This document shows positions 21,513-49,624 of a stretch of DNA of 64,000 nucleotides, piece by piece (positions within the stretch are counted from its first letter, which is position 1; every line of letters starts with the position of its first letter). The stretch comes from Ureibacillus massiliensis 4400831 = CIP 108448 = CCUG 49529 (GTDB lineage: Bacteria; Bacillota; Bacilli; Bacillales_A; Planococcaceae). The position numbers and the translations under genes were made by a program. The stretch covers positions 1-64,000 of the forward strand of contig NZ_JPVQ01000002.1 of the NCBI RefSeq assembly GCF_000772965.1, given 5' to 3'. The notes below the pieces were generated by a model. It searched no databases and was not told where the DNA came from. It saw nothing but the letters and a program-made list of their open reading frames with translations.

Positions 21513-21626
21513 AACATTTCTTCCTTTCAAAACACTACTATTTTTGTCCTTTGACAGCCAATACAATACTTGTGAAATAAGGCCTATTAGGAAATTGAAA
21601 CGTTAAATCTCCTTACAGACAATTAT

Positions 21627-35057: not shown

Positions 35058-36196
35058 TTGAATTCACCTTGGAAAAATAAGTCTAGCAAAACATCTAGCT
35101 TTGCTTCCTGGATATCTTCAGGAACTTCTTGTCCATCTGTATAATAAGCTAGTCCTTTATTATATTTAATCATTAAATTGAAAATAGTGCCAATAGAATT
35201 TGTCTCGTCTATCTTGGTAAATATAAACTTTTCAATTGGTACATCATTAAATTGTTCAATAATAATTTCCATATCTTTTTCTTTAGAAGTTAGTGATAGG
35301 ACTAAAAAGGATTCAGACATGTCTCTGAAGTCAATCAATTCCTTAATATCGCTTACATATTTTCCCTCTTTATAATTACGACCAGCAGTATCAATAAACA
35401 CTAAATCAACATTCTCCATTTTTTGGACAGCTCTTTGATAATCCTGTGCATTATAAACAATTTCAAGAGGAGCTTGTAAAAGATTTGCATAGATTTTTAA
35501 TTGTTCAATTGCCGCTATTCGATATGTATCTGTCGTGATAAATCCGATTCGTTTCTTCTTTTCTAAAACGGATCGAGCAGCCATTTTTGCAATTGTTGTC
35601 GTTTTCCCAACTCCAGTTGGGCCAAATACATTTATATATTTCTTTTCATAAGTTAAACCGCCAAATGAAAGCTTTTCTAATTTCACTCTTAACGATAGTT
35701 CAACTTGCTCCCACATTTGCTTTTGTGTCATTTGAGAATTTGAATTTTGATAATGCACAAAAAGCTCATCACTAATTTCGGTGATGAGCTCCTCACTAAG
35801 CTCTTGTTTTTTTAAGAATTGAACAATAGGTAAAAATAGTTCAGGGTATTGAGATTGCACTGATTGTCTTTGAATAGACTTCATCATTGATTTTAAATCT
35901 GCGAGTTCTTTTTTTAATACATCTGTTGAAGTTACTTTTTCATCCAATTTTGGTTGAGTAGTAGAAGCAGAAAGATTTAATCCCACTTCCAAATCAGGTA
36001 ATTGCTCTACTTTTGGTTTTACTTCAATTTGATCTACACCAGCTAATACTTCAAAGTGCTTTTGTTTAATTAACCCAAATAGCTTTTTCGTTTCAACTAC
36101 TTTTGAATTTATAATGACAGCATCTTCGCCTAGTTCTGCTCGTATTGATTTCATCGCTTCAGCAATGGAAGGAGCTATATATTTTTTCATTTTCAT
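35054..36196 (-). CDS. flhF: Flagellar SRP-family GTPase FlhF
   Basis: This 380-residue GTPase directs flagellum placement. The N-terminal B domain (about 1-110) is basic, then variable. The N and G domains follow, with Walker [15 protein letters not shown] near 192-205, DTYRIAAIEQLK, DTAGRNYKEGK near 272 and TKIDETNSIG. The start may be either of two near-adjacent ATGs (MKMKKYIAP); both overlap the flhA stop. It overlaps flhG by 4 nt. Confidence 0.95.
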   Translation of the reverse strand: MKMKKYIAPSIAEAMKSIRAELGEDAVIINSKVVETKKLFGLIKQKHFEVLAGVDQIEVKPKVEQLPDLEVGLNLSASTTQPKLDEKVTSTDVLKKELADLKSMMKSIQRQSVQSQYPELFLPIVQFLKKQELSEELITEISDELFVHYQNSNSQMTQKQMWEQVELSLRVKLEKLSFGGLTYEKKYINVFGPTGVGKTTTIAKMAARSVLEKKKRIGFITTDTYRIAAIEQLKIYANLLQAPLEIVYNAQDYQRAVQKMENVDLVFIDTAGRNYKEGKYVSDIKELIDFRDMSESFLVLSLTSKEKDMEIIIEQFNDVPIEKFIFTKIDETNSIGTIFNLMIKYNKGLAYYTDGQEVPEDIQEAKLDVLLDLFFQGEFK

Positions 36197-38226
36197 TCTA
36201 CATTCACCACTCCAACACTTTGGATTTCAATGTTTGCGTCTAATTCGTTATAAGATAGAATCGGTATCTGTGGAAAATATCGTTCCGTTAATTGTCTTAA
36301 ATACAATCGAATTGCAGGTGAGCATAAAATAATTGGCGATTGTTCCATATACGATACTCTTTCAACTTCTTTAGCAATTGACTCTAATACATTTTGCGAA
36401 TCCTGTGGATTCATTGCCAAATAATTGCCATGTTCAGTTTGTTGAATACTATCTGCAATTAATTTTTCTAATTTCGCTGGAACTGTAATTACCTTTAAGG
36501 TTGGCCCGCCTAATCCATACTGAGCTGTAATTTGTCGAGCAAGGGCTTGTCTTACATATTCCGTTAAAATATCCGTATCACTTGTTAGTTTTGAATAATC
36601 CGCTAAAGTTTCAAAAATAATAGGTAGATTTCGTATTGAAACATTTTCTCTTAATAGTTTAGCCAATACTTTTTGAATTTCACCAATCGAAAGTGGCGTT
36701 GGTGTTAATTCTTCTACTAAAATTGGATAGCTTTCACGTAAATGATCAATTAATTGTTTTGTTTCTTGTCGACCTAATAATTCGTGTGCGTTTGCACGTA
36801 TCATTTCAGTTAAATGAGTTGAAACGACACTCGGTGGATCTACCACTGTATAGCCAAGCATTTCAGCTTCTTCTTTTGTTTTTTCAGTAATCCATTTCGC
36901 CGGTAATCCAAAGGAAGGTTCAATCGTATCGATTCCTTCAATTGAATTATCATCGCCAGGGCTCATTGCTAAATAATGATCTAGAAGCAATTCACCTTTA
37001 GCCATTTCATTCCCTTTAATTTTAATGCGATATTCATTCGGTTGTAGTTGAATATTATCTCGAATACGTACAACTGGAATTACGATCCCTAGTTCAAGTG
37101 CTAATTGTCTACGAATCATAACAACCCGATCAAGTAAATCGCCACCCTGTGCTGCATCTACAAGTGGAATTAATCCATATCCAAACTCAAATTCAATTGG
37201 ATCAACATTTAACAGGTTCACCACATTTTCTTGACTCTTCATCGTATCAGTAGCAACTTCTTCTTCGATTTCAAGCGCTTCTTCAGGTGTTTCTGTTTTC
37301 TTACGATCTGCTAAGTATGCTCCTAGTGCTAAAACAGCAGCAATCGGAAGAGTGATCCAGTCTGGAAGCGGCGTAAATAATCCTAATAATAGAATGGTAC
37401 CCGCTGCAACATATAATAGTTTCGCCTGTGCAAATAATTGACTTGTAATATCATGTCCTAAATTGCCTTCAGAAGCTGCTCGTGTTACTACTAAACCTGT
37501 TGCCGTTGAGATAAGTAAGGCTGGAATTTGCGCTACAAGACCATCACCTACAGTTAACTTTGAGAAATGGCTTGCGGCATCATTTAATGTGTATCCTAAT
37601 TGAGCCATACCGATAATCATACCGAATAGTAGGTTAATGAAAACCATAATGATTGAGGCAATGGCATCACCTTTTACGAATTTTGTTGCCCCATCCATGG
37701 CCCCATAAAAATCTGATTCACGAGAAACCTTGTCACGGCGTTCACGTGCTTCTTTTTCTGAGATCATCCCAGCATTTAAATCAGCATCGATACTCATTTG
37801 TTTACCTGGCATCGCATCCAAAGTGAAACGTGCTGCAACTTCAGCGACACGCTCTGAACCTTTTGTGATTACGATAAAGTTCACAATGACTAATAGCATG
37901 AAAATTACTAATCCGACTAATATATTTCCTCCAGTTACAAACTCACCAAAAGTTTCTACTACATCCCCTGCATCACCTTCTGCTAAAATCGCACGAGTTG
38001 TAGAAATACTTAACGCTAAACGGAAGAGAGTAAGTAACAATATGATTGAAGGGAAAATTGCAAAGTCCAATGCTTCTTTCATGTTCATTGCAGTTAATAG
38101 AACTAACAATGATAAAGTAATGTTAATAATAATTAAAAAACTTAGTAGCCATGTTGGAAGAGGGATTACAAGCATCGCTACAATTAAAATTACAACTGCT
38201 AACACACCAATGTCGCGAAATTTCAT
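36193..38226 (-). CDS. flhA: Flagellar type III export protein FlhA
   Basis: This 677-residue membrane component of the export gate has about eight N-terminal membrane helices (1-325). The conserved cytoplasmic FHIPEP loop is seen as KGSERVAEVAARFTLDAMPGKQMSIDADLNAG at about 125-155 in segments. The C-terminal domain (about 350-677) docks chaperone-substrate complexes. Full length. It follows the flhB pair by 30 nt with AGGAGG before its ATG. Confidence 0.97.
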   Translation of the reverse strand: MKFRDIGVLAVVILIVAMLVIPLPTWLLSFLIIINITLSLLVLLTAMNMKEALDFAIFPSIILLLTLFRLALSISTTRAILAEGDAGDVVETFGEFVTGGNILVGLVIFMLLVIVNFIVITKGSERVAEVAARFTLDAMPGKQMSIDADLNAGMISEKEARERRDKVSRESDFYGAMDGATKFVKGDAIASIIMVFINLLFGMIIGMAQLGYTLNDAASHFSKLTVGDGLVAQIPALLISTATGLVVTRAASEGNLGHDITSQLFAQAKLLYVAAGTILLLGLFTPLPDWITLPIAAVLALGAYLADRKKTETPEEALEIEEEVATDTMKSQENVVNLLNVDPIEFEFGYGLIPLVDAAQGGDLLDRVVMIRRQLALELGIVIPVVRIRDNIQLQPNEYRIKIKGNEMAKGELLLDHYLAMSPGDDNSIEGIDTIEPSFGLPAKWITEKTKEEAEMLGYTVVDPPSVVSTHLTEMIRANAHELLGRQETKQLIDHLRESYPILVEELTPTPLSIGEIQKVLAKLLRENVSIRNLPIIFETLADYSKLTSDTDILTEYVRQALARQITAQYGLGGPTLKVITVPAKLEKLIADSIQQTEHGNYLAMNPQDSQNVLESIAKEVERVSYMEQSPIILCSPAIRLYLRQLTERYFPQIPILSYNELDANIEIQSVGVVNVE

Positions 38227-38256: not shown

Positions 38257-38940
38257 TTAAATTTTTCGTTTAATTCGATATACATAAGCAAGTATTTCTG
38301 CCACAGCTTTAAAAAACTCTTCTGGCACAAAATCTCCTATTTCAACTTTGTCATACATGGCTCTAGCTAATGGTCGATTTTCAACCATTACTACATCATG
38401 TTCTTTCGCGATTAATTTAATCTTTTGAGCTACAAAATCTGTACCTTTCGCAATTACCTTTGGTGCATCCATATTCTGCTCATCATATTTCAGTGCAATT
38501 GCATAGTGAGTTGGATTTGTTATAACAACATCCGCACTCGGTATTTCTTGCATCATTCTTCTCATAGCCATTTCACGTTGACGTTGCTTGATTTTCGATT
38601 TAACTTGTGGGTCACCTTCAGCGTTTTTATGTTCATCTTTTATATCTTGTTTCGACATTTTTAAGTTCTTTTCATACTCGTATTTTTCATAAACATAATC
38701 CAAAATAGCGATGAATATAAGAACTAGTGCTGCGGCGATTCCCATTAATGCAGTTAAACTTGCAACGGTTGATAATATATCCCAAGGATTTTGAAAAGCT
38801 AGACTTAAAACATCTGCCATATTCATCCAAATAATTAAAGTAGTAACTGCTCCGATAAAGGCAACCTTTAATAAAGATTTAAGTAAATTAATAATTGCCC
38901 TCAATGAGATTATTTTTTTAATCCCTTTTATCGGATCCAT
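38257..38940 (-). CDS. flhB: FlhB, C-terminal part (separate reading frame)
   Basis: This 227-residue frame covers membrane helices 3 and 4 and the cytoplasmic switch domain of FlhB, the substrate-specificity switch of the flagellar exporter. The autocleavage site NPTH is intact in DVVITNPTHYAIALKYDE near 125, as are KMSKQDIKDEHKNAEGDP and KQRQREMAMRRMM. It starts MDPIKGIKK, which in intact FlhB is an internal sequence after LKK. Its ATG lies within the A7 run at 38940-38946. No Shine-Dalgarno precedes the ATG. Joined to the upstream frame it gives about 362 residues, the size of B. subtilis FlhB (360). Confidence 0.9.
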   Translation of the reverse strand: MDPIKGIKKIISLRAIINLLKSLLKVAFIGAVTTLIIWMNMADVLSLAFQNPWDILSTVASLTALMGIAAALVLIFIAILDYVYEKYEYEKNLKMSKQDIKDEHKNAEGDPQVKSKIKQRQREMAMRRMMQEIPSADVVITNPTHYAIALKYDEQNMDAPKVIAKGTDFVAQKIKLIAKEHDVVMVENRPLARAMYDKVEIGDFVPEEFFKAVAEILAYVYRIKRKI

Positions 38941-39344
38941 TTTTTTAAATCGAATTTCAAGGTTTCTGTTGTAAAAAGCAGTCCGAATTGAAAATAGTTA
39001 GCCCCAATTCCTGTCACTACTGCAATAAGAAGAAATGGTAAAAGGATGGAAGCCATTTCAGTAAGGGTTTGTGCATATATTTCCATTACCGTTTCTTCGG
39101 TTATAGACTCAATCAGTATATTTTTTTCAATGAATTGATGAAAGAATGAAAACAAACCTTCTAACATAAATGGTGCCCAAACATAAAGGAACAAAAATAA
39201 TATAAGCAATAATACCGCTGCTGTTACATCCTGACTTTTAACGACTTGTCCTTTTTTCCTTGCATCTTGTCGCTTTTTCGGTGTCGCCTTTTCAGTCTTT
39301 TCTCCTGCAAAAAATTGCAAGTCTAATTGAAGAAATAACTTCAC
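38928..39344 (-). CDS. flhB: FlhB, N-terminal part (separate reading frame)
   Basis: This 138-residue frame has the FlhB N-terminus DLQFFAGEKTEKATPKKRQD and membrane helices 1 and 2, then reads LLFTTETLKFDLKK before ending WIR and a TAA at 38928-38930. The GTG start at 39344 follows the fliR stop directly, with AGGTGG upstream. The true continuation, MDPIKGIKK, lies in the -1 frame at the A7 run. So flhB is either frameshifted by a one-base deletion (natural or sequencing) or read through by slippage. I list the halves separately and regard the gene as one unit. Confidence 0.9.
   Translation of the reverse strand: MKLFLQLDLQFFAGEKTEKATPKKRQDARKKGQVVKSQDVTAAVLLLILFLFLYVWAPFMLEGLFSFFHQFIEKNILIESITEETVMEIYAQTLTEMASILLPFLLIAVVTGIGANYFQFGLLFTTETLKFDLKKWIR
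38940..38946 (-). other. Slippery A AAA AAA heptamer at the flhB frame junction
   Basis: On the minus strand the codons run GAT TTA AAA AAA TGG. The seven As form A_AAA_AAA in the correct phase for a -1 tandem slip, after which reading continues ATG GAT CCG, joining FDLKK directly to MDPIKG. An eighth A would give an intact gene. No strong upstream Shine-Dalgarno or downstream stem-loop was seen near it. Confidence 0.6.
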
Positions 39345-40121
39345 CTAAGCACCACCTAACAAGTTCATTAAATCTCTCATAGCAATGATCATGATTTCCA
39401 CTAAATTTTGCATCACCTGAATCATGACACCCATGACAATGAACAAAACTAAAAAACCAATGGCTATTTTTATCGGAAAACCAACAACGAAAATATTTAA
39501 CTGTGGAACTGTTTTTCCAGTAATCCCTAATGCCACCGTCACAAGAAATAATGTTGCAACAACTGGCGCAGACATTTGAAATGCGATGGCAAAAACAGAT
39601 CCGAATAATTTTATGATATATTCTACTGTCCCAACATTTCCGAAGTTTGGATATAGCTGATCAATAGGCATAAATTGAAAACTATAAAAGATACCATCTA
39701 ATATTAAATGATGTCCATTGATTGCAAGTAAGACAAATATTAAGAGTACGTTAAAAAATTGACCCATGAGCGGACTTTGAGTACCTGTTTGTGGATCGAT
39801 AATATTTGCCATAGCAAAACCCATTTCAAAATCAATAAAGCCCCCAGCTATTTGTACAGCAGAAAACACAATATAAGCACAGACACCGAGCATTAATCCG
39901 ATGATTGCTTCTTTTAGAATAAGTAATATGTAATTTCCATCTATAGCAAATGGTTCAACATTAAATGTATAATACATCATCCAAGAAAGGACGAGTGCTA
40001 ATGCAATTTTCAGTTGAGGTGGTATTGTTCGATATGAAAAAAACGGGATTGATACGAAAAAAGCTGATACTCTCACAAAAATTAATAATAAAACAGATAA
40101 TTTTGGAATAAGTTCTGTCAT
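39345..40121 (-). CDS. fliR: Flagellar export gate protein FliR
   Basis: This 258-residue membrane protein forms the export gate with FliP and FliQ. About six hydrophobic helices are visible, along with family sequences near the N-terminus (IPFFSYRTIPPQLKIALAL at 25-43) and GFAMANIIDPQTGTQSPLMGQ near 100-120. Typical length. It lies 4 nt after fliQ; its stop codon is followed immediately by the GTG of flhB. Confidence 0.95.
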   Translation of the reverse strand: MTELIPKLSVLLLIFVRVSAFFVSIPFFSYRTIPPQLKIALALVLSWMMYYTFNVEPFAIDGNYILLILKEAIIGLMLGVCAYIVFSAVQIAGGFIDFEMGFAMANIIDPQTGTQSPLMGQFFNVLLIFVLLAINGHHLILDGIFYSFQFMPIDQLYPNFGNVGTVEYIIKLFGSVFAIAFQMSAPVVATLFLVTVALGITGKTVPQLNIFVVGFPIKIAIGFLVLFIVMGVMIQVMQNLVEIMIIAMRDLMNLLGGA

Positions 40122-44456: not shown

Positions 44457-44897
44457 TTACTGAATGATGTAGGAGGTAATGTAGACTTGTTCAACTGTAC
44501 CTACTTGCATCAATTCGTTTAATTGTGTTTTTATAGTGGATTGTAAAAAGATTTTCCCTTGCTTTCCTTGTAAATCCTCTTCCGTTAACTCAGAGAGCTC
44601 TTGTATAATGATATCTTTAATTTGGAAATCTCGCTTCGTTAACTCTTCAGCAGCTTTTTTACTGTCCGTCTGAATTTTTAATTGCAAACGAACAAAACTA
44701 TCATCTGCTAAATTCGTTGTCATTTCAGGAACATCGATTGATGCTTCTAAAATCTCATCAATCGTAGGTTCTCCAGTTGCAGCTTTTTGATTATTAAATT
44801 GCGTTAATAATACAAAAATTACAACACCTATTAGCGTAATTGTTACTAAAATAATCAGCATTACGGTTAGCAATTTATTACTATTGTTATTCTTCAT
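44457..44897 (-). CDS. fliL: Flagellar basal body protein FliL
   Basis: FliL supports stator function near the motor. From ATG 44897 it has 146 residues, near the 140 of B. subtilis: one membrane helix (about 10-32) followed by an extracytoplasmic domain with DDSFVRLQLKIQTDSKKA. The start was chosen because GAGG lies 8 nt upstream; ATG at 44903 would abut it. It overlaps the end of swrD by 11 nt. Confidence 0.93.
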   Translation of the reverse strand: MKNNNSNKLLTVMLIILVTITLIGVVIFVLLTQFNNQKAATGEPTIDEILEASIDVPEMTTNLADDSFVRLQLKIQTDSKKAAEELTKRDFQIKDIIIQELSELTEEDLQGKQGKIFLQSTIKTQLNELMQVGTVEQVYITSYIIQ

Positions 44898-45108
44898 CTT
44901 CATCACCTCGTAGATGCGGGTTTGATAGTATTTGGATATCACGATAAAAACTTGTTATTTTTTGACGCACCTCTTTTGCACTTTCTAAAACAATAAATTT
45001 GCGCCCAGTTGTAAGCGTAATTGTTGTATCAGGAAATGATTCCACTGTTTCTATGTATATAGCGTTGATGGAGAATGGTTTTCCGTTTAATCGAGTAAGT
45101 TCTATCAT
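44887..45108 (-). CDS. swrD: Flagellar protein SwrD (FlbD/YlzI family)
   Basis: This 73-residue protein matches the FlbD family: MIELTRLNGKPFSINAIYI near the start and TITLTTGRKFIVLES at about 30-44. In B. subtilis SwrD supports flagellar torque and swarming, probably through the stators. The ATG at 45108 is fixed by the conserved first residues. Its only strong Shine-Dalgarno, AGGAGG (45149-45144), lies 35 nt upstream with a GC-rich hairpin in between (45116-45140), an unusual layout. It overlaps the fliL start. Confidence 0.93.
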   Translation of the reverse strand: MIELTRLNGKPFSINAIYIETVESFPDTTITLTTGRKFIVLESAKEVRQKITSFYRDIQILSNPHLRGDEDEE

Positions 45109-45151
45109 TGAAATAGGGCCGGGTCAGTGAGAGCCGGCCCGACCCTCCTTT
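45109..45151 (-). promoter_or_regulatory. Hairpin between the swrD Shine-Dalgarno and ATG
   Basis: In the transcript AAAGGAGGGTC (45151-45141) is followed by GGGCCGG (45140-45134), an 11-nt loop, CCGGCCC (45122-45116) and TATTTCA before the ATG. If the stem is folded, the SD-to-ATG spacing falls from 35 to about 10 nt. A competing pair GGGTC/GACCC (45145-45141 with 45125-45121) would involve the SD. The segment is all G+C-rich in an AT-rich context. Confidence 0.6.
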
Positions 45152-45220
45152 GCAATGAGATATTAATTATATTTAAGTATTCTATTTAGCCATTAAAATA
45201 ACATTGCTAGTTTACTAGGA

Positions 45221-46531
45221 TTAACGTTTTAAGTTTACAAGCTCTTGAAGAATTTCATCAGATGTTGTAATAATACGAGAGTTGGCTTGGAAACCACGTT
45301 GAGTAACAATCATTTCAGTAAATTCTTCAGATAAGTCAACATTGGACATTTCTAAGAAACCAGCTTCGATCGAACCAATACCATTCTCTGTAGCAGTACC
45401 AACTACTGGTTGACCTGAGTTAGACGTTTCTTTGTAATAGTTACTACCTGCTTTTTCAAGTCCACCTGTATTTGGGAATTTTGCTAACTGGATTTGTCCT
45501 GCCACTTGTAATTTCCCGTTTTCATCAACAAAGTTAATTGTACCATCTTGAGCAATCGACATACTTTGTGCAGTTGTTGGAATTTGGATAGGTCTTAAAG
45601 CTTCAGTTAATGTTGTTGTATAAACTGTACCTGTACCTGTTTGGATTAATGTTTCCTCGATAGTATCAAATATATCAGCAGTAAAGCTTGTGATAGGACT
45701 GTCATCCGCTGTAAAGTCAACAACATTACCATCTTCATCAACTAGAGTATTTTCACCAGTGACTTCATATCGAGCATTATCAATCGTTACAAAAAGCTTA
45801 CCTGTAGATGAATCAATCTCGATGTCTACTAATTGTGCATCACCATTTTCGTCTTCGTAATCTGCTTGTATTTGCGTAAAACCGTCAGCGTCATCATAAG
45901 ATTGAAGTTTGCCATCGACAATAACAAGAGCTCCATCTAAGTCAGCAGCTTCATCTACATCATCTGGGTTAATAGTTGCCCCATCAGTAACATACTCACC
46001 ATCTTCATTCACTAACAATGTAAATGATTGGTTATTAAATGTAAGAGTTTCTGTAGTTAACCCCATAATTGGAACAGTAGCTGATGTAAGTGTTGCATCA
46101 TAACCAACGAGATATTTACCGTCAGAATTGACTACATAACCATCTCGATCCATGTAAAAGTTTCCTGCGCGTGTATATTGCGTATTAGTAAATCCTGCTT
46201 TTCCTTCTGTACTATCTGCGACTTGGAAGAAGCCATCACCAGAAATCGCTAAGTCAAGAGTACGAGCTGTTGTTTGTAATGATCCTGTAGAGTGAATTGT
46301 GTCAATTGCAGCAATTTGAGAACCTAGACCTACTTGTTTTGGATTTACACCCCCACGAGTTTCAGTCGAAGCTGATGCACCTGCAGTTGTTTGTGAGATT
46401 AAATCCTTAAATACTACACGACCTTTTTTGAAGCCATAAGTGTTCACGTTTGAGATGTTATTCCCAATTACGTCAAGTTTTGTTTGGAAGTTTTTTAAAC
46501 CTGAAATACCAGAGTACATAGAACGTAACAT
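45221..46531 (-). CDS. flgE: Flagellar hook protein FlgE
   Basis: This 436-residue hook subunit has the rod/hook N-terminus MLRSMYSGISGLKNFQTKLDVIGNNISNVNTYG in segments and the C-terminus EEFTEMIVTQRGFQANSRIITTSDEILQELVNLKR, the D0 helices shared by flagellar axial proteins. The large middle (about 140-330) forms the surface D1/D2 domains and is acidic and variable. Secretion uses the type III system; no signal peptide. AAGGGAG precedes the ATG, and an 85-nt structured leader lies upstream. Confidence 0.95.
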   Translation of the reverse strand: MLRSMYSGISGLKNFQTKLDVIGNNISNVNTYGFKKGRVVFKDLISQTTAGASASTETRGGVNPKQVGLGSQIAAIDTIHSTGSLQTTARTLDLAISGDGFFQVADSTEGKAGFTNTQYTRAGNFYMDRDGYVVNSDGKYLVGYDATLTSATVPIMGLTTETLTFNNQSFTLLVNEDGEYVTDGATINPDDVDEAADLDGALVIVDGKLQSYDDADGFTQIQADYEDENGDAQLVDIEIDSSTGKLFVTIDNARYEVTGENTLVDEDGNVVDFTADDSPITSFTADIFDTIEETLIQTGTGTVYTTTLTEALRPIQIPTTAQSMSIAQDGTINFVDENGKLQVAGQIQLAKFPNTGGLEKAGSNYYKETSNSGQPVVGTATENGIGSIEAGFLEMSNVDLSEEFTEMIVTQRGFQANSRIITTSDEILQELVNLKR

Positions 46532-46616
46532 TGTATCGTTCTCCCTTCAATTTTTATATGAGTGTCTCGCGTCTATCAGTCGGCGAGCTTTAGGCATCCT
46601 TTTCAGGTCCTGCCTA
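46532..46616 (-). promoter_or_regulatory. Structured leader before flgE
   Basis: The 85-nt gap has two tight hairpins in the transcript. The first, arms 46616-46611 and 46596-46591, is TAGGCA/TGCCTA with an internal loop, a CCT/AGG helix and a GAAA tetraloop. The second is CTCGC/GCGAG (46587-46583 with 46570-46566). GGA occurs twice in the first hairpin, including AAAGGATG, which resembles a CsrA site. The element begins just after the stop codon of the upstream gene. It does not match any riboswitch class I know. Confidence 0.5.
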
Positions 46617-46997
46617 TCATAGCACGATTGTGCCATCAATGTTTGTAAATAATTGATTTTTTGCTTCAGTGCGTTCCATCGCTGTAATTACCGTTGCATT
46701 TTTAGCACTTACAATCAACGCGGCTTGCTCCATCAATACTAAAGGTTGATTGACTCCTTTTGAACGTGCTTCAAATACTTTATCCGTTACCACTTGCCAT
46801 TCTTCATCTGAAATGCTTATGTTGCGCTCGATTAACCGTTCATTTGCATGTTTACTAATTTTTAGTTCTTGGCTATTTGTTGCCTCTTGCAAATGTTCAA
46901 GGAATGACTGTTTTGTTTGAATCGTATTTGTTTTTAGACTTTTTTGTGGTTGTAATAGCGGTTGCAATGGCACGTGCTGAATTTGTATTCTATGCAT
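46617..46997 (-). CDS. Flagellar operon protein, TIGR02530-like family
   Basis: This 126-residue protein is found between flgD and flgE in many Gram-positive flagellar operons. The region ISKHANERLIERNISISDEEW at about 45-65 (in segments) and MEQAALIVSAKNATVITAMERTEAKNQLFTNIDGTIVL at the end identify it. Its function is unknown; a hook assembly role is suspected from position. No signal peptide. It lies 14 nt after flgD. Confidence 0.85.
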   Translation of the reverse strand: MHRIQIQHVPLQPLLQPQKSLKTNTIQTKQSFLEHLQEATNSQELKISKHANERLIERNISISDEEWQVVTDKVFEARSKGVNQPLVLMEQAALIVSAKNATVITAMERTEAKNQLFTNIDGTIVL

Positions 46998-47011
46998 GTG
47001 CTTTCACCAGC

Positions 47012-47665
47012 CTATTCACTTATTAGTTCGAATTGATCCTTCTTTAAAACCTTTTCGTTTTGCAAAATAAATTCAATCACTGAATTGTTAGTTTTTACAG
47101 AATCGATTATCGATTGAACCCATTCTCCATCTTCCTCATATCGAACCTTTCGCCCTATTAATTTACTAGCTTCAACTAATGGATTTTCGGTAGGCTCTAC
47201 TGTTGACGGTCTATTAAAGATAGATGAAATATGTCCTGGTGTAATTTCTTTTCCATCCTTAAGTACGAAATAAGGTTCACCATCAATGAATTTTAATTGT
47301 TCAATGACACCCGTTCCTTCATTTACAATGAGGTTACCCTCTTCATCGACTTCCTCTGTTAATTCATGCCATTGTATCTCTTTTCCAATGAACGTTGTAT
47401 AATCCATCAGCTGTGATTGATGCTGTGAATCTAGTAAGTTTTCAATAGCTTTCGTCATATTTTGCATTTGCTCTAATGAACTAAACTGAGCTAATTGAGC
47501 AATATATTCAGTATTATCCATTGGTTGAGTAGGGTCTTGATGTTGTAATTGCGTTACCAATAGCTGTAAGAAGGCATCTTTCCCTAATGAATTACTCCCA
47601 GTTTGTTTAGTAGTCGTTCTATTAGACAAGTAATAATCGTTGGAAATCGGATTTGTATTTGCCAT
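47012..47665 (-). CDS. flgD: Flagellar hook capping protein FlgD
   Basis: This 217-residue hook cap scaffold shows the N-terminal signature GKDAFLQLLVTQLQHQDPTQPMDNTEYIAQLAQFSSLEQM at about 28-68 in segments, the key FlgD region. The C-terminal part is shorter and less conserved than in enterics, as is usual in Bacillales. It lies 3 nt after fliK and precedes the hook-region gene. Confidence 0.93.
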   Translation of the reverse strand: MANTNPISNDYYLSNRTTTKQTGSNSLGKDAFLQLLVTQLQHQDPTQPMDNTEYIAQLAQFSSLEQMQNMTKAIENLLDSQHQSQLMDYTTFIGKEIQWHELTEEVDEEGNLIVNEGTGVIEQLKFIDGEPYFVLKDGKEITPGHISSIFNRPSTVEPTENPLVEASKLIGRKVRYEEDGEWVQSIIDSVKTNNSVIEFILQNEKVLKKDQFELISE

Positions 47666-47668
47666 CTG

Positions 47669-49000
47669 CTACACCTCCTCGTTGATCAAATAATCTTTAA
47701 AGCTTAAACTTTCCTCATCTTCATCATGTTCATCTTGGTTTTCATTTTCTTGTTCTTGCTGTTGCCTAAACATATTACTGAACATGCTTTGATCACGGAA
47801 GTTACGATCAGTTTCCTGTAAACTTTGTGCTATATCGATTCGATCCATTTGAATATTTGCGTGTGCAAATGCAGATTTTAATTGATGCAACTGACCATCA
47901 AGTAATTCTTTTGCCGCCTGCGTTGTTGCAAGCAATCTTGCAGATAGAACACCATCTTGTTGCATAATTTCAATTCGAATAGAGCCTAAATTTTCAGGAT
48001 AAAGTTTCAACAAAAGCTTCATTGTACCTTGTGTATTCGACAATTGACTACGATTCATTAAATATTGAATTTCTTTAACTAACGCTTCTCCCTGAGCATT
48101 CTTTTCTACTGGAAGTGTGATTGTAAAAGTTTTCACACTTGTATTTGTTGTTTGCTGGGTTGATATAGGTGTTTGCATAGTTTCCGTTGTGTTTTCTGTT
48201 TGCTTCACTACTTGCTGCTGAGAGCTCTGAGTAACACTGTTATTTGATACTGCACTTTGAACTGTTTGAGTTGTAACTGTCGCAATTTGCTTTGTTGTTG
48301 AGTCTGTAGAAGATACCAAGTCCTCTTTTGTAGACTTATGTACCTGTTCAACTACCATTTTTATTACATCTTTTAAATTCAGTAATTGAAGAGGTTGGTC
48401 ACCCATTAAATCTCCATTCTTACCAACAATTTGTGCAAGCTTTAAAAATTGAATAAGTTGTTCCGCTTCTTTTGGTGTAACTTTATGTTCACCTTGTAGG
48501 GCAGTTGCAAGCTGACTTATTATATTTGGAGCTTGTTCATTTACCATTTGGACAAATTGCCAAATATTATTCAGTTCAATGTTCTCAGTATCTAAAAGGT
48601 TTTCCATCATTTTTGATAGCTCTTCACTATCCATATTTAATAAAGACAGTAAATCTTCTAAATTCATCGATTCATCGATAGATTTCATTTGCCCTTCCCC
48701 ATCGACTTGAATCGTAAGAAACCCTTCATCATGTGAAATACCAAGTAAATCTAACACTTCTTCAATTGACTCTGAGTCTAGTAGATTATTTAATGCCTCT
48801 ACATCAACTGTTTCTTCCTTTGCAGTATCAGTTTTAGTTGTATTATTTTGGCTTGCTACAATTTTACTGAAAACTTCACCAAATTTACCGCTAGTTTCTC
48901 CAAGTGCTTTCGAAGTATTTGCTGTCGTAGCTTTTGTTGATGTTTGTCCAGTTGAAATTGTTTGACTCATCGATGTTAATTGCATGATTCCTAAATTCAT
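47669..49000 (-). CDS. fliK: Flagellar hook-length control protein FliK
   Basis: From ATG 49000 this is 443 residues; GGAAGGAGG lies just upstream, so the longer GTG-type start at 49018 is unlikely. FliK measures hook length and triggers the FlhB specificity switch. The N-terminal two-thirds is low-complexity (T, Q, S-rich). The C-terminal FliK domain carries LLLKLYPENLGSIRIEIMQQDGVLSARLLA near 335-365 in segments. An acidic tail ends it. Its partner FlhB is split in this window. Confidence 0.88.
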   Translation of the reverse strand: MNLGIMQLTSMSQTISTGQTSTKATTANTSKALGETSGKFGEVFSKIVASQNNTTKTDTAKEETVDVEALNNLLDSESIEEVLDLLGISHDEGFLTIQVDGEGQMKSIDESMNLEDLLSLLNMDSEELSKMMENLLDTENIELNNIWQFVQMVNEQAPNIISQLATALQGEHKVTPKEAEQLIQFLKLAQIVGKNGDLMGDQPLQLLNLKDVIKMVVEQVHKSTKEDLVSSTDSTTKQIATVTTQTVQSAVSNNSVTQSSQQQVVKQTENTTETMQTPISTQQTTNTSVKTFTITLPVEKNAQGEALVKEIQYLMNRSQLSNTQGTMKLLLKLYPENLGSIRIEIMQQDGVLSARLLATTQAAKELLDGQLHQLKSAFAHANIQMDRIDIAQSLQETDRNFRDQSMFSNMFRQQQEQENENQDEHDEDEESLSFKDYLINEEV

Positions 49001-49033
49001 ATTTTCACCTCCTTCCAAGAAGATGTTTTTTTG

Positions 49034-49624
49034 TTATCTTGATAGCAACTCTGTGAACTTTGCAGCATCTGTTGGATTCATCTTGGAAAGAACTTCTGAT
49101 AAAGTATCAGATTTTAAACTTGATAAAATACGTACAGCCTCATCTTGACTCATTGCTACTAGAATTGGAGCAGCTTCTTTCGCAGACATTTTTTCGAAGG
49201 CAGATACGATTTCAGTAAACTCTTTCTTTGCAGTATCTTGTTCCCTCTGTATGCGGTCAATTTCATATTCTAGTTCTTCTTGAAGGATAGCCGCTTCTTC
49301 AGTTTTTGATTTTTCACTTTCAAGTTGTGATTGGAGCTGGGCAATCTCAGCTTCTTTTTGCTCTATTTGTGCTTGTAACTCCACAATTTTTTCATCAAAT
49401 TCTTGAATTGGCTTACTTGTTTCTTGCTGTGATGGAACAAATGGTAAATTACCAGTTAATTCTTTTGTTTTCTCGAAGATGTTTGTATTTGTAATCGTTG
49501 CAATGACTAGTAGCACCGCGATAACAAACATTAATGGTATTAGAAACCAAAAGAAAATCTTTTGAAAAACACCCGGTGATTTTACTTCTTCAATATTGTT
49601 CTCTTGATAATTTGGCCTTGTCAT
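49034..49624 (-). CDS. ylxF: YlxF-like protein with MgtE N-domain motif
   Basis: From ATG 49624 (AGGTGATCCT before it) this is a 196-residue protein: a short N-terminus, one membrane helix (about 27-50), a long coiled coil (about 75-140), and a C-terminal MgtE_N-like helical domain with KMSAKEAAPILVAMSQDEAVRIL and SEVLSKMNPTDAAKF. NCBI-type naming calls this family MotE/YlxF. A role in flagellar assembly is inferred from its fixed place between fliJ and fliK. It begins 4 nt after the fliJ stop. Confidence 0.85.
   Translation of the reverse strand: MTRPNYQENNIEEVKSPGVFQKIFFWFLIPLMFVIAVLLVIATITNTNIFEKTKELTGNLPFVPSQQETSKPIQEFDEKIVELQAQIEQKEAEIAQLQSQLESEKSKTEEAAILQEELEYEIDRIQREQDTAKKEFTEIVSAFEKMSAKEAAPILVAMSQDEAVRILSSLKSDTLSEVLSKMNPTDAAKFTELLSR

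Follow-up and report, generated by a model that had tools for sequence, protein, structure and literature searches.

A one-base contraction of a poly-A run appears to interrupt flhB in a single Ureibacillus genome

Homopolymer tracts whose length sets the reading frame have been described in several motility genes. In C. coli, a T8 tract in flhA contracts to T7 at a rate of 3e-4 and is restored at 7e-6, and in B. subtilis the swrA tract shortens from nine to eight bases at about 1e-4 and returns from eight to nine at about 1e-5 (PMC2831843). The same source describes P. putida flhB, which undergoes frameshifts in a poly(G) tract at its 5′ end, and homopolymer frameshifts are likewise described for H. 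pylori fliP and C. jejuni flgR (PMC3930126). Mutation of flhB in P. putida DOT-T1E impairs swimming (PMC3056050). In the type III secretion gene spa13 of Shigella, transcriptional slippage yields an extended, required product at 25 to 30% (PMC5009743).

Here we describe an flhB gene of Ureibacillus massiliensis that is broken at a run of seven A residues within the stretch of DNA analyzed (64,000 nucleotides, hereafter the window). As with the C. coli flhA T8/T7 tract, H. pylori fliP, and the poly(G) tract of P. putida DOT-T1E flhB, the last of which is the same gene as that broken here (PMC2831843, PMC3056050), a change of one base in a homopolymer breaks an export-gate gene. Unlike those cases, the present one concerns a single genome, a run in the middle of the gene, and a Gram-positive Bacillales host. 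The closest parallel in the composition of the tract and in host order is swrA (A8/A9), where poly-A slippage likewise acts on a motility gene of the Bacillales (PMC2831843); however, swrA is a swarming gene with its tract at nucleotides 20 to 27, whereas flhB is a structural export gene with its tract in mid-gene. The Shigella spa13 case resembles this one in that slippage occurs in a type III secretion gene (PMC5009743), but the flhB genes of relatives of the present strain are unbroken. Among the titles listed for flhB and frameshifting in the literature, none reports the flhB break in this genome.

The gene lies on the minus strand between fliR (39345..40121, PF01311), its upstream neighbor, and flhA (36193..38226, PF00771), its downstream neighbor, both of which are open frames. 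These belong to a series of genes for flagella and chemotaxis, whose names other than fliR, flhB, and flhA we assume from their translations and the usual gene order. Two frames that overlap at the A7 run (38940..38946) were found in the position of flhB, as the initial annotation had reported. The 5′ piece (38928..39344, 138 aa) ends in FDLKKWIR-stop, with its TAA stop codon at 38928..38930, three codons past the run, and matches positions 1 to 115 of PF01312 (E 2.9e-31). The 3′ piece (38257..38940, 227 aa) begins MDPIKG at an internal ATG at 38940 and matches positions 116 to 335 of the same model (E 1.1e-96). Because the two pieces match consecutive parts of PF01312 (Bac_export_2; the FlhB/YscU/SpaS family) and jointly span the length of the model, they represent one FlhB in two frames. 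The 3′ piece carries the NPTH motif characteristic of this family (38506..38517), which we take to be the FlhB autocleavage site, and solved FlhB chains in the PDB match nearly all of this piece, with chains 3b0z_A and 3b0z_B adjoining at the motif, between query residues 142 and 143. From 38950 to 38928 on the minus strand, the A7 run occupies 38946..38940 and is followed by tggatccgataa. The zero frame across the run reads TTA AAA AAA TGG, and the heptamer A AAA AAA is therefore in phase, a further point on which the sequence agrees with the earlier description.

The ATG at 38940 is an ordinary internal codon of the C-terminal frame, with M, I, or sometimes L at this position in 80 relatives, and no Shine-Dalgarno sequence was seen by eye ahead of it. 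We did not find a second intact flhB in the genome: a search with the 5′ piece recovered nothing besides flhB, and one with the 3′ piece recovered only flhB and one short match. Two flagellin-domain genes elsewhere in the genome are open. The short match lies just past the window (C72:66109-66345, where C72 is the contig carrying the window), corresponds to the FlhB cytoplasmic domain, and sits in an open frame of 103 aa. A second, weaker match is also present in 23 of the 24 other genomes of the genus, in one of which it has internal stops.

With flhB of relatives compared, as the initial annotation had proposed, the frame was found to be uninterrupted at this site in every relative examined. 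A scan of contigs with the 3′ piece gave 388 relatives, and the set of named loci comprises the best 80 of these; the nearest were Ureibacillus and Lysinibacillus. Reading upstream from the homologous codon, we found a frame break at the A-run site in none of these best 80 of 388, and at least 133 upstream codons were open in 79 of them. The remaining locus (L048) has 100 open codons, its upstream frame breaking about 100 codons before the site and away from the A run. In that Psychrobacillus record, flhB is disrupted at about 2180-2300 by a messy, imperfect duplication that resembles an assembly fault. All 24 other genomes of the genus (25 including that of the window) carry a single open flhB frame of 362 to 404 aa. 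In a family-wide search, 237 of 261 genomes matched; among the 150 of these 237 matches that were listed, that of the window's own genome spans 246 aa, and the other 149 are all at least 327 aa with no sign of a break.

The closest genome (G015; locus L084) is 97% identical in amino acid sequence over the 3′ piece. This genome, a single contig, carries flhB as one 362-aa frame, with A8 at the site. A coding homopolymer thus differs between two close genomes, A7 versus A8, and sets the frame, in support of the earlier proposal that a single A is missing. Run length at the site ranges from 2 to 8 across the 80 named loci, with A8 in 12 of them and always in frame, and from 3 to 8 across the 24 same-genus genomes, with A8 in five, again all in frame. 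Judged from these alignments, A8 is one way of encoding Leu-Lys-Lys-Met/Ile, and the flhB break is a one-base contraction confined, among the genomes examined, to that of the window.

Such a contraction could be real, or a run that is truly A8 could have lost one A during base calling or assembly. The site is a homopolymer and the assembly is a draft of 156 contigs, both of which favor an error. The fidelity of the assembly was checked by aligning contigs C72 and C1 (239,999 and 240,317 bases, about 480 kb) to G015 and comparing open reading frames that were mechanically predicted in G015, were at least 120 aa long, and matched at 80% identity or more (n = 412; 205 and 207 on the two contigs). 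Only flhB fell into two frames in the assembly that carries the window (1/205 on C72, 0/207 on C1), making it the sole case among 412; on C1, one G015 frame had a coverage of 0.82 with no second piece. In the reverse comparison, one of 205 frames on C72, that of a chemoreceptor-like gene, was split in G015; on C1, a second piece was found for none of 208, and three frames had low coverage. The chemoreceptor-like gene is open in the present genome (C72:110578-112266), and its G015 relative is split where two bases have been inserted into an AT repeat.

Homopolymers within predicted frames gave a similar picture. Among 19 runs of at least eight bases (by their length in G015), 17 agree between the genomes; the two exceptions are the run of flhB and another that is shorter by three bases. 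Of 160 runs of seven, 157 have the same length as in G015. One of the three differing runs of seven falls in a 5′ leader, and neither of the other two splits a conserved frame. Four other places with unbalanced indels relative to G015 near the predicted ends of frames (102, 1639, 21533-21563, and 63720) also split no conserved frame. This 480-kb comparison does not support a general homopolymer failure of the assembly. Long A/T runs on C72 that differ in length are shorter in the window's genome in seven of eight cases, flhB included, a skew that mildly suggests undercalling. The corresponding counts for C1 are seven shorter and five longer. The assembly does not appear generally poor, and a single isolated error at this run, while possible, is in our judgment an unlikely source of the break.

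The 3′ piece retains the marks of constraint. Relative to G015, the 3′ piece differs by 20 synonymous and seven nonsynonymous changes (omega 0.083) and the 5′ piece by 25 synonymous and five nonsynonymous changes (omega 0.044). Nine other flagellar and chemotaxis genes gave omega values of 0.008 to 0.136; flgE was left out because its value could not be computed. These omega values do not support an old pseudogene. Because the second half of flhB is still constrained, the lesion looks recent, and on these substitution counts the break is probably recent unless function persists. A branch test, which is weak and required five outgroups to agree, assigned no amino acid differences to the branch of the window's genome and one to that of G015, with 11 of 12 ambiguous.

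The A8 run with an open frame in G015, the unbroken relatives, and the undecayed second half of the gene together make a recent slippage mutation in a single strain the most likely explanation, and we consider it probable that flhB has undergone a recent A8 to A7 contraction, in this genome alone, that yields a truncated FlhB and leaves the protein nonfunctional or leaky. Replication slippage would have shortened the run, and translation would then normally stop after 138 aa. The truncated protein would keep two of the four membrane helices, a topology that we assume for FlhB, and would lack the NPTH switch domain. Without working FlhB, the cell would be expected to form no flagella or poor ones, although slippage on A7 may still supply full-length FlhB at a few per cent. 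Motility is often lost in culture, and the change in flhB may have been favored there.

The initial annotation had also raised a more unusual reading, in which the dose of full-length FlhB is set at A AAA AAA, by transcriptional slippage or by programmed -1 frameshifting, or in which the two pieces cooperate, as a form of export-gate control. Besides the heptamer being in phase, this reading draws on published precedents. A 7-A cassette taken from a different gene produced 10% frameshifting when placed in an E. coli reporter (PMC3711429), and a cluster of insertion sequences with A_AAA_AAA represents a proven case of frameshifting that is aided by a stem-loop (PMC4066793). A structure is also predicted at flhB, where the annotation had seen no clear stem-loop: a fold at 38852..38934 on the minus strand (MFE -22.3 kcal/mol) begins 5 nt past the heptamer, and the 87 nt from that point gave a z score of -3.96, with repeats of -3.84 and -3.46. 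By this modeling, the fold lies where a stimulator could lie and its spacing fits, which leaves some room for recoding.

Nevertheless, relatives do not support the fold. A z score of -2 or below was obtained at the same place in just two of 24 same-genus sequences, one of them G015, and in both of these the frames are intact; no conserved stimulatory structure at the flhB junction was found among the 24. Energies obtained by imposing the window's fold on the other sequences were set aside, because disrupted base pairs deprive them of meaning. Scanning the same 1.4 kb in 88 windows revealed a stronger predicted fold inside the 3′ part of flhB (38324-38410, minus strand; z -5.38, 87-nt window). 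In our reading, the fold after the heptamer is a product of chance. Recoding is further opposed by the lack of a visible Shine-Dalgarno sequence for the 3′ piece and by the finding that the break, with its A7 overlap, is shared by no relative examined, be it the 80 named loci (the best 80 of 388), the 24 same-genus genomes, or the other 149 family matches listed; this is the outcome that the annotation itself had set as a refutation. With unbroken frames in relatives and an unconserved fold, programmed recoding of flhB is unsupported, and we regard either form of it as extremely improbable. Some slippage at A7 remains compatible with the data, as had been suggested, but it would be adventitious rather than programmed: the published frameshifting at A7-type sequences (PMC3711429, PMC4066793) makes some leak at flhB plausible without any program. 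Homopolymer frameshifts in flhA, fliP, swrA, and P. putida flhB are already in the literature. A claim of novel control at this locus is not supported. This locus should be taken as one genome with a broken flhB and is not to be cited as a split FlhB or as programmed frameshifting.

A reversible motility contingency switch, in which flhB alternates between A8 and A7 and the assembly caught the OFF state, would likewise explain an A7 run facing A8 in so close a genome. Switching rates have been published for comparable tracts in C. coli flhA and B. subtilis swrA, and P. putida flhB undergoes frameshifts in its 5′ poly(G) tract (PMC2831843). However, the tract is not maintained, given run lengths of 2 to 8 in the 80 loci and 3 to 8 in the 24 same-genus genomes, and runs of at least eight are ordinary, being present in seven of 100 predicted frames in the first 104 kb. 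The tract also lies in mid-gene, whereas those of swrA, flhA, and P. putida flhB are described at the 5′ end (PMC2831843). Phase variation therefore appears quite unlikely, although if it were true, an export-gate gene would be added to the poly-A tracts already known to switch motility in Gram-positive bacteria. A composite, in which the A8/A7 switch has a leaky OFF state because FlhB is restored on a minor fraction of transcripts, or by a minor fraction of ribosomes, owing to A7 and the fold, such that a low level of the export gate is kept, seems to us highly unlikely.

Sequence conservation between the two genomes is uneven elsewhere in the window. The stretch at 44652-49064, comprising flgE and its neighbors, is nearly identical to G015 and has zero differences across 45616-48063, while the contig overall is 5.2% divergent; this near-identity suggests recent recombination.
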